NCBI RefSeq assembly: GCF_010091945.1
Contig: NZ_WVIE01000003.1
Coordinates: 1-64,000 of the forward strand
Origin: Myxacorys almedinensis A
Lineage (GTDB): Bacteria > Cyanobacteriota > Cyanobacteriia > Leptolyngbyales > Leptolyngbyaceae
Length of the DNA: 64,000 bases
Direction of reading: 5' to 3'
Below, piece by piece: positions 17,838-57,066 of the stretch. The translations under genes were made by a program, and so were the position numbers. The notes below the pieces were generated by a model that did not search any database, was not told the DNA's origin, and was given only the letters and a program-made list of their open reading frames with translations. Each line of letters opens with the position of its first letter. Position 1 is the stretch's first letter.

Positions 17838-18515
17838 ATGTATGTCTTGATTGGGGGTGCCGGACTCATTGGGCTGAGTTTGGCGCAGCGATTGGTAGAT
17901 TTGGGGCATACCGTTGCTGTGATCGATATCAGTGCTGCTGCCTGTCATTATGCCCGTGAGCAACTGGGTGTCATTGCCTTCGAGGGGAGTGCTGTTAGCA
18001 CTGAAATATTGCTCGAAGCTGGCATCCGTAAGGCAGATGCTTTGGTTGCGGTGCTGAGAGACGATGCGCTCAACCTAGCGATGGTGACGTTAGCCAAGCA
18101 TTATGGTGTGCCACATATTCTGGTGCGAATGCGGCATAGAGATTTTGCTGGTCCTTACCGGTTTGCGGGGGCAACCCATGTGATCAATGCGATCGAGCTT
18201 GCAGTGTCTACGATGGTGAATGTGATCGAATATCCGGAAGTCGAGTCGATCATGCACTTTGAGCAAGGGCAAATTGAAGTCCTCAAATTGTCCCTTTCAG
18301 GAAACTGTGATGTTGTGGGTCGCAGCGTTGCCGAGGTTGCCCAAGATCCAAAATTTCCCAGGGGTTCCCTGATTATTGGTTATCAGCCTCATGCCCATAT
18401 GGATCTGACGATTCCTAACGGCAGCACTATTTTAGAGCTAGAGTCTACGGTGTTGATTGCCACAAAGCCGGGGTTGATTCATGAAATGGTTGATTTTATG
18501 CAGAAATGTGGCTAG
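17838..18515 (+). CDS. TrkA/KtrA-type K+ transport NAD-binding regulatory subunit
   Basis: This 225-residue soluble protein has an N-terminal RCK/TrkA-N Rossmann domain (glycine motif GGAGLIG near residues 7-13, acidic VIDI at the end of the second strand, FEGSAV, ADALVAVLRDDALNLAMV) and a C-terminal TrkA-C domain (about residues 145-220). Such subunits bind nucleotides and gate a membrane K+ channel or Ktr transporter. No membrane partner is adjacent, so it must work with one encoded elsewhere. Its TAG stop lies inside the CTAG end of repeat copy B, which fills the whole gap to the convergent antiporter gene. Confidence 0.88.
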   Translation: MYVLIGGAGLIGLSLAQRLVDLGHTVAVIDISAAACHYAREQLGVIAFEGSAVSTEILLEAGIRKADALVAVLRDDALNLAMVTLAKHYGVPHILVRMRHRDFAGPYRFAGATHVINAIELAVSTMVNVIEYPEVESIMHFEQGQIEVLKLSLSGNCDVVGRSVAEVAQDPKFPRGSLIIGYQPHAHMDLTIPNGSTILELESTVLIATKPGLIHEMVDFMQKCG

Positions 18516-18624
18516 TAGATTGTTAACTTTAGGTTGATGGGTGAATGGGTGGATGGTTCCGATTACTAGACTCCCGGTCTCCCCCTCATTTCCTAGTCCC
18601 TCATCCACCTTGACAGACCACTAG
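18512..18624 (-). repeat. MITE-like dispersed repeat, copy B, spanning stop codon to stop codon
   Basis: This element of 113 bp is bounded by CTAG on both sides. Its left end is CTAGTAGATTGTTAACTTT and its right end is CCTTGACAGACCACTAG, an imperfect inverted pair. In reverse complement it aligns with copy A (ATGAGGGACTAGGA, AGTAATC core, CCATCCACCC). The left CTAG supplies the TAG stop of the TrkA gene (18513-18515) and the right CTAG supplies the stop of the antiporter gene (18621-18623 on the minus strand). The element therefore occupies exactly the intergenic space. Confidence 0.78.
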
Positions 18625-20231
18625 TCGTCTTCTAAGTTCAGCAGTTGCTGATCGATGGTGCGGGTTCGCGATCGCACAATGTCCTCTGATAAAATGCGTT
18701 TCCGCAACGCATCACTCAGCGCATTTTTTTCAGCCAGCAGTAAGCGCCGCCTCACCGCATCAAATCGGGGTTCGACCCGGCTTCCCTTGTCCCCTCGTCG
18801 GTTGTAAAACTCTCGCAGCGATCGCTCGGCGGCGGCAACCTTCACCTGATAGCTCGATCGCATCTCTTCATAAATCGATTTTGCCAAAACCCCTGCATTG
18901 AGCAGCGTGTCTAGCTCTTCTTGGGCCGCTTTGGCAGTCATCAACTGAGACTGCAACCCTTCGATCCACTGCTGGGTTTCCGAGCCATGGGTGATGTTCA
19001 GACGCTTGACAAACAGGGGAAGACTCAAGGCTTGCCCCACCAATGATAGAAGCACTGCACCAAACACGATCGCAATTAGCGCCTCTCGCCCAGGCAGCGA
19101 TGGCGGTAAACTCAAGACCAGCGCCATTGACAGCGATCCTTTAATGTTTCCTAGAAATAAAACATGTTGCCACTGGAGCGGAATAGGACGATCGATGCTA
19201 CGTACGATCGCGAGCAGGGGATACACCGCAAGAAATCGCCCAGCTTGATACGCCAAAACTGCCAAAAGCACAGCAGGTAACGTGTTCCAGAGCGTCGGCA
19301 CGCTCAGTTCTAACCCAATCAATAAAAAGATAAATGTGTTGACCCCAAATCCTGCGTATTCCCAAAAGCTCAGCACCGTAATCCGACTCGATGCTGAAAT
19401 GCTACGTGGTTCCTTGGGAATTGCGCCAATGGGGAGTCGCTCTAAATTGCCGACCAATAATCCGGCTCCAACAACCGCCACTACACCCGACACGCCCAAC
19501 CATTGACTGAGTTGAAAGGCACCCAGCGCGATCGCAACGGTTAACAAAATGCTGCTCAACGGATCGTCGTCAGACTGGACGTACAGCCCGATCCCCAAAT
19601 ATCCAAGCGTGATCCCAACTGCCAAGCCGCCCAAAATGGTCACCCCAAGTTCCTGAATACCCTCCACAACGCTGACGCTGCCCGTTGTGTTAAATTTCAA
19701 AATCAAACTAAATAAAACTAGAGCGATCCCATCGTTAAATAGACTTTCGCCTTCTACGATCGTAATGAGCCGCGACGGAACTGAAACTTCCTTAAAGACT
19801 GCGATTACAGATACCGTATCGGTGATTGCCAGGATGACACCGACCAACAACGCCGGAATCCACTCAAGCCTTAGCCCAAACTTTAAGCCAACGGCTGTTA
19901 CGCCAACCGCAACCACCACTCCTGGACCAGCAAGTAGCAAAATTGGCTTTAATGTGCTGCGAAGTCGGCTAATGTCAGTATTAATTGCCGCTTCAAACAG
20001 CAAGATTGGCAAAAACAAGTTGATAATAAGCGAAGAATCGAGTCCAACCCGACGGGGCAAAAACTCTGAGATCGCTAACCCTGCCAATACCAAGCCAGTC
20101 ACATACGGTATTCGCAACCGGCGAGACAATAAAGCCACAATCGTGGCAACCAGCAACAAAATGATTAACACTGTCACTAGTTCGGCAAACCGCCCTTGCT
20201 CACGTTCTACTGTTGCAATCAACTGTGTCAT
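18621..20231 (-). CDS. Na+/H+ antiporter, CPA1 (NhaP) family
   Basis: The protein is 536 residues, with about twelve membrane segments in residues 18-410 and a hydrophilic C-terminal tail of about 120 residues. The ion-binding signature is present: ITDTVSVIAVFKEV and EGESLFNDGIALVLFSLIL, the latter carrying the conserved Asn-Asp pair of CPA1 antiporters. The tail is rich in charged helices (RSLREFYNRRGDKGSR) and is probably a cytoplasmic regulatory region. It exchanges Na+ (or K+) for protons in pH and salt homeostasis. It is convergent with the TrkA-type gene, a plausible functional neighbour in ion balance, from which only repeat copy B separates it. Confidence 0.92.
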   Translation of the reverse strand: MTQLIATVEREQGRFAELVTVLIILLLVATIVALLSRRLRIPYVTGLVLAGLAISEFLPRRVGLDSSLIINLFLPILLFEAAINTDISRLRSTLKPILLLAGPGVVVAVGVTAVGLKFGLRLEWIPALLVGVILAITDTVSVIAVFKEVSVPSRLITIVEGESLFNDGIALVLFSLILKFNTTGSVSVVEGIQELGVTILGGLAVGITLGYLGIGLYVQSDDDPLSSILLTVAIALGAFQLSQWLGVSGVVAVVGAGLLVGNLERLPIGAIPKEPRSISASSRITVLSFWEYAGFGVNTFIFLLIGLELSVPTLWNTLPAVLLAVLAYQAGRFLAVYPLLAIVRSIDRPIPLQWQHVLFLGNIKGSLSMALVLSLPPSLPGREALIAIVFGAVLLSLVGQALSLPLFVKRLNITHGSETQQWIEGLQSQLMTAKAAQEELDTLLNAGVLAKSIYEEMRSSYQVKVAAAERSLREFYNRRGDKGSRVEPRFDAVRRRLLLAEKNALSDALRKRILSEDIVRSRTRTIDQQLLNLEDD

Positions 20232-29044: not shown

Positions 29045-29179
29045 CTAGTAGATTATCAACTTTGAGTTAAGGGGTAGATGGGTGAGAGGGTAGAGGGGTG
29101 GATGAGTAAGAGGGTCGATGGAGATGTTACATATGCGCCCATCCACCCATCCATCATTTCAGCCTTGACAGACAACTAG
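29045..29179 (-). repeat. MITE-like dispersed repeat, copy C
   Basis: This element of 135 bp has CTAG at both ends: left CTAGTAGATTATCAACTTT, right CCTTGACAGACAACTAG. Its interior has GGGTAGATGGG-type and CCATCCACCC-type complementary arms. It lies in the only sizeable gap of the hps-type operon (29026-29202), between the hpsB- and hpsC-like genes, and is in the same orientation as copies B and D. Transcripts would carry the hairpin, which could uncouple expression or stabilise one side. Confidence 0.78.
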
Positions 29180-36113: not shown

Positions 36114-36129
36114 GAAGACGCTCCAAATA

Positions 36130-36192
36130 GGTTGAGATAAAAATAATTTAGGTTGAGACAAAAATAATTTAGGTTGAGACAAAAATAATTTA
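36130..36192. repeat. Tandem repeat, 3 x 21 bp
   Basis: Three head-to-tail copies of GGTTGAGACAAAAATAATTTA (first copy with one change) lie between the ruvB stop and the TPR start. Because the unit is 21 bp it stays in frame and creates a repeated LFLSQPK peptide in the open frame upstream of the TPR gene. It may affect the ribosome-binding or promoter region of that gene. Confidence 0.9.

Positions 36193-55655: not shown

Positions 55656-57066
<1,411 letters not shown>

Follow-up and report, generated by a model that had tools for sequence, protein, structure and literature searches.

Convergent genes and the inserted element

Two convergent genes are separated by a short repeated element, copy B, in the window, the whole 64,000-nucleotide stretch analyzed here from Myxacorys almedinensis A (contig NZ_WVIE01000003.1, positions 1 to 64,000). 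The gene at 17838..18515 on the forward strand encodes a TrkA-type K+ regulatory protein of 225 aa with Pfam domains TrkA_N and TrkA_C. The gene at 18621..20231 on the reverse strand encodes a CPA1-type Na+/H+ antiporter of 536 aa with the Pfam domain Na_H_Exchanger. Each gene ends within a CTAG. The left CTAG (18512..18515) holds the TAG stop of the TrkA-type gene (18513-18515, forward strand), and the right CTAG (18621..18624) holds the antiporter stop (complement of 18621-18623, reverse strand), as a preliminary description of this DNA had noted. Both CTAGs are read in the sequence as copies of the insertion target, and a 4-bp duplication is shown at the family level. Between them lie the 105 bp of copy B proper (18516..18620), whose IS630-type ends TAGATTGTTAA and TTGACAGACCA form an imperfect inverted repeat. 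The left terminal inverted repeat, TAGATTGTTAA (18516..18526, forward strand), corresponds to the family consensus TAGATTGTCAA, and the right one (18610..18620, reverse strand) reads TGGTCTGTCAA inward.

The same genome contains a second, paralogous convergent trkA-antiporter pair (C6:87901-89377) without the element, and its TrkA frame seems to extend beyond the antiporter stop. Elsewhere in the window, three nearly perfect 21-bp tandem repeats of TAGGTTGAGAYAAAAATAATT are found at 36128-36192.

The MITE family and its transposase

Copy B is a MITE, a non-autonomous DNA transposon that is short, noncoding, and present in high copy number. The genome, a 4.96-Mb draft in 85 contigs, was searched for copies, which were gathered by locus. 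The exact end sequence CTAGTRGNYTGTCAA has 94 matches genome-wide (45 + 49) while the reversed control pattern has 0, so the ends of copy B are beyond chance. With one mismatch allowed there are 167 matches. At least 60 paired, non-overlapping copies are present; their median length is 117 bp, most span 54 to about 280 bp, and they have no coding capacity. The ends are asymmetric, beginning TAGATTG and TGGTCTG. The interior holds a variable CATCCACT-like tandem repeat whose number differs among the copy at C9:12916-13101 and other copies in the genome, accounting for much of the length range of 90-180 bp. The window has further copies at 135-289 (left flank CTAG, right flank CTAA), at 29045-29179, and at 55799-55921, the last of which has lost its left end. 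Rearranged or back-to-back ends also exist (locus L238).

Larger elements with the same ends encode a transposase of the IS630 family. These elements of about 1.2 kb (about 1,215 bp) are found in genomes G346, G008, and G025, the last with many copies, and they share the ends T[A/G]G..TGTCAA with the MITE. The MITE therefore has terminal inverted repeats in common with an autonomous element. The element of G346 codes for an HTH domain, plus a DDE_3 domain in an overlapping frame. Its transposase is assigned to the IS630 family by NCBIfam NF033545 with 134.9 bits (cut-off 100) and matches PF13358 with 77.6 bits (cut-off 28.6), and the autonomous partner has the expected DDE transposase of IS630 type. 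The separation of the HTH and DDE parts into two overlapping frames in this element (1661-2880 of locus L230, contig C82) suggests programmed frameshifting.

An intact cognate IS630 with the MITE ends was not found in the 85-contig draft of the window's genome, which has only remnants and contig-end fragments; the transposase that moved copy B is for this reason one we infer. At least one exact MITE end occurs in 126 of 390 genomes drawn from the class, a count in which singletons can be due to chance, and about 16 of the 390 carry two dozen or more exact ends. A literature search covering few subscription papers found neither a description of this family nor any report of IS630 elements with a 4-bp CTAG duplication.

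The junction in relatives

The congener G001 has the orthologous gene pair without the element, with a 4-bp overlap between the two genes. G001 is the sole congener compared, and the pair is 82% and 77% identical to that of the window at the DNA level. Its junction reads ...TGCGCTTAATCATCC..., and the overlap (GCGCTTAATCATCC) is a TTAA palindrome that forms the TAA stop of the TrkA-type gene on one strand and the TAA stop of the antiporter gene on the other. If the element and one of the CTAGs are taken out of the window, what is left has the architecture of G001, with CTAG in place of TTAA. Copy B thus has both a target site duplication and an empty site in a relative. The preliminary description held that the genes once shared a single CTAG. 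The shared 4-bp palindrome with both stops is indeed present in G001, but its letters are TTAA, so CTAG is the most likely target at the time of insertion rather than one seen directly in a close relative.

Both reading frames have been preserved across the insertion, as had been proposed, and this is visible directly. The C-termini in the window and in G001 are QKCG* and QNCA* for the TrkA-type protein and LEDD* and LEDD* for the antiporter. Both alignments reach the end, and the C-terminal length of each protein is equal in the two genomes.

Exact 4-bp shared stops are rare among the other junctions. An in-frame check found them at four junctions only, besides copy B: G001, and relatives with CTAA (L151), CTAG (L161), and TTAG (L168). 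L161 is from a distant cyanobacterium, and its shared-stop overlap is exactly CTAG. The comparison with relatives that had been suggested as a check thus gave shared stops in these four, but at many other junctions the genes lie 6 to about 1000 bp apart or overlap by 35-44 bp. The lone CTAGs at many distant junctions were considered as shared stops and rejected, since most of the TrkA frames there continue and overlap the antiporter gene by 35-44 bp. A shared-stop architecture at the time of insertion is well supported by the comparison of junctions.

Separated or rearranged trkA-antiporter junctions in many relatives, together with copies such as L238, could also fit a history in which the element is older than the meeting of the two genes. 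A rearrangement would then have joined two flanks ending in CTAG, and the fit from stop to stop would be incidental. This is very improbable: the pair in G001 is likewise convergent and overlaps by 4 bp, neither C-terminus has lost residues in the alignments, and this convergent arrangement is ancient among cyanobacteria. Insertion into shared stops remains the preferred reading. Other copies can also be compared with the congener. The copy at L030 gives a second ungapped empty-site alignment over its junction (L248 in the congener), with CTAG where the congener has TTAG. Two more copies align over their junctions with G001: L099 has CTAG for CTAA, and L108 has CTAG..CTAA where the congener has CTGA.

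The length of the target duplication

Copies with flanks other than CTAG distinguish a 4-bp duplication from a duplication of TA. At copy B itself the expected empty site is identical under either version. The duplication made by canonical IS630/Tc1/mariner elements is TA, and IS630 prefers CTAG (PMC2170065 and its references). In the window's own genome, 37 of the 46 copies with TA at both junctions are flanked by CTAG on both sides. Pattern scans of 16 genomes were used to collect other flanks. Identical 4-bp direct repeats were found in 24 of the 25 pairs whose two flanks both differ from CTAG; these pairs come from six genomes. The matching flanks include GTAG..GTAG, CTAC..CTAC, CTAT..CTAT, ATAG..ATAG, and CTAA..CTAA. 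Among the 24 are a copy from the window's genome (C22:273086-273255, GTAG..GTAG) and an autonomous IS630 (G025:C1:5723635-5724854), and two to three more 4-bp matches occur among ends that were initially unpaired. Because these pairs match over 4 bp, the duplicated unit is 4 bp. The 4-bp duplication that had been proposed from copy B is therefore real for the MITE/IS630 family, and the TA-only duplication of canonical IS630 is not what these NTAN repeats show, with the split between 2 and 4 bp less clear in the window's own genome.

The flanks that differ on one side show a different pattern. In the window's genome the difference is at the outer base in 8 cases and at the inner base in 2, and among unpaired ends in the 16 genomes, with doubtful ends removed by hand, the counts are 85 outer and 29 inner. 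This excess is at odds with a plain 4-bp duplication followed by later mutation. The CTAG duplication predicted for other copies is seen in most copies with intact TA; the one-sided differences in the same genome fall mostly on the outer base. A simple duplication, whether of 4 bp or of TA, does not account for an outer-base excess of about threefold alongside matching pairs. Given this excess, a 4-bp duplication in the window's own subset is no more than likely. A subfamily in genome G050 with the left end TGTTCTGTCAA may be TA-only.

The same MITE history could be combined with duplication of TA alone, in which case CTAG would be the preferred target, with the element itself supplying the inner G in each TAG. 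Such an insertion would regenerate TAG in any TAA or TAG stop. The transposase does belong to the IS630 family. According to PMC2170065 and its references, IS630 itself enters CTAG at the TA, and the duplication made by ISY100 is TA. The 8 to 2 outer-base differences, the TTAG..CTAA and CTAG..CTAA copies of G050, and the L108 copy with its CTGA congener point the same way. However, duplication of TA cannot yield 24 of 25 identical 4-bp repeats at non-CTAG flanks, one of them in the window's genome, and copies in G025, G260, and G159 already indicate that both outer bases were duplicated at non-CTAG NTAN sites. A TA-only conclusion drawn from the one-sided differences of the window's genome was overturned at the family level by the matching non-CTAG pairs of other genomes, and this version is unlikely.

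Stop codons as insertion sites

Insertions at stop codons are common in the family. In 20 of 60 copies the terminal TAG is exactly the stop of a long reading frame (60 codons or more), and the ends fall in phase 0 in 21 cases compared with 4 and 4 in the other phases (p = 2e-5). Among CTAG sites that lie outside gene bodies and are not part of an element, 19 of 370 (5%) are at stops in 464 kb of the same genome; the two fractions rest on different criteria, and the gene caller behind the second was simple. Several of the frames ending at TAG resemble natural C-termini by eye, for example those of MutM-like and dihydrofolate-reductase-like proteins. Copy B is the sole one of the 60 copies seen to end two genes. 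At another copy (L021, C5:37214) a 474-codon open frame enters the element in another phase, possibly a gene whose original C-terminus was replaced by this copy. The abundance of stop insertions is best explained by CTAG targeting combined with purging of insertions elsewhere.

The contrast between 20 of 60 copies and about 5% (19 of 370) of other CTAG sites, and the ability of copy B to fold end to end, might instead indicate that the element was retained at convergent gene ends for its use as a terminator in both directions or as a hairpin affecting RNA stability, rather than as a neutral scar. The folding energy of copy B is no better than that of shuffled sequences (z 0.29), and on this ground a stable RNA structure or terminator was rejected. 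No poly-T tract was seen, and the enrichment at stops is equally expected if insertions elsewhere are purged. Retention for such a function is improbable, and a neutral insertion is preferred.

Discussion

Copy B is very probably a MITE moved by an IS630 transposase into a shared-stop 4-bp NTAN target, with duplication of the 4 bp and no change to the proteins. In this history an IS630-family (DDE) transposase would have moved the non-autonomous element into a palindromic NTAN, most likely CTAG, where the convergent stops overlapped. Staggered strand transfer and gap repair would have duplicated the 4 bp, leaving each gene a complete TAG on its own side of the element and neither protein altered. 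Each gene would have kept its own stop without coding loss because the insertion duplicates the four shared bases. The transposase responsible would since have been lost from the genome, or be unassembled in the draft. As an event, copy B is a MITE insertion of an ordinary, familiar sort, whose history is unusually easy to read and whose target duplication is slightly unusual and possibly atypical for IS630.

The family resembles known elements in most respects. As with Nezha and the MITEs of Anabaena sp. 90, its members are short, noncoding, present in high copy number, and mostly intergenic, with terminal inverted repeats; its asymmetric ends and variable minisatellite-like interior may set it apart from them. 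RUP of Streptococcus pneumoniae is an IS630-Spn1-related MITE of about 100 bp that is thought to be mobilized in trans by an IS630-family element, and it duplicates TA. RUP is thus similar in size and in its IS630-family mover, but has another host and another end sequence. Like IS630 and ISY100, the autonomous partners have an HTH and DDE_3 transposase of the IS630 family, with inverted-repeat ends identical to those of the MITE, and insertion is likewise centered on TA, with a strong CTAG preference in the MITE family. In contrast to the TA duplication of IS630 and ISY100, the copies described here have matching 4-bp NTAN duplications in several genomes, and at least one relative's element (L230) differs in having its transposase split over two overlapping frames. 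Sailor (DD82E), of the ITm superfamily, makes a 4-bp TATA duplication (PMC8533490), a precedent within the IS630-Tc1-mariner group for duplicating 4 rather than 2 bp; the target is TATA there and CTAG/NTAN here.

Gene ends may be places where such elements can accumulate. It is conceivable, at somewhat less than even likelihood, that a widespread cyanobacterial IS630 branch makes 4-bp NTAN duplications centered on CTAG and enters TAG or TAA stops, overlapping or single, without changing the protein, so that gene ends and shared-stop overlaps are safe harbors for MITE accumulation. The locus is a clean natural record of transposition, in which the empty site with its shared stops, the duplication of the target, and the integrity of both proteins are all legible from the DNA. 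For an element that targets CTAG, stop codons can serve as harmless landing places, and insertion there separates genes that formerly overlapped. In this IS630-family group the duplication appears to be 4 bp long rather than TA, and intact copies in living relatives make this directly testable.
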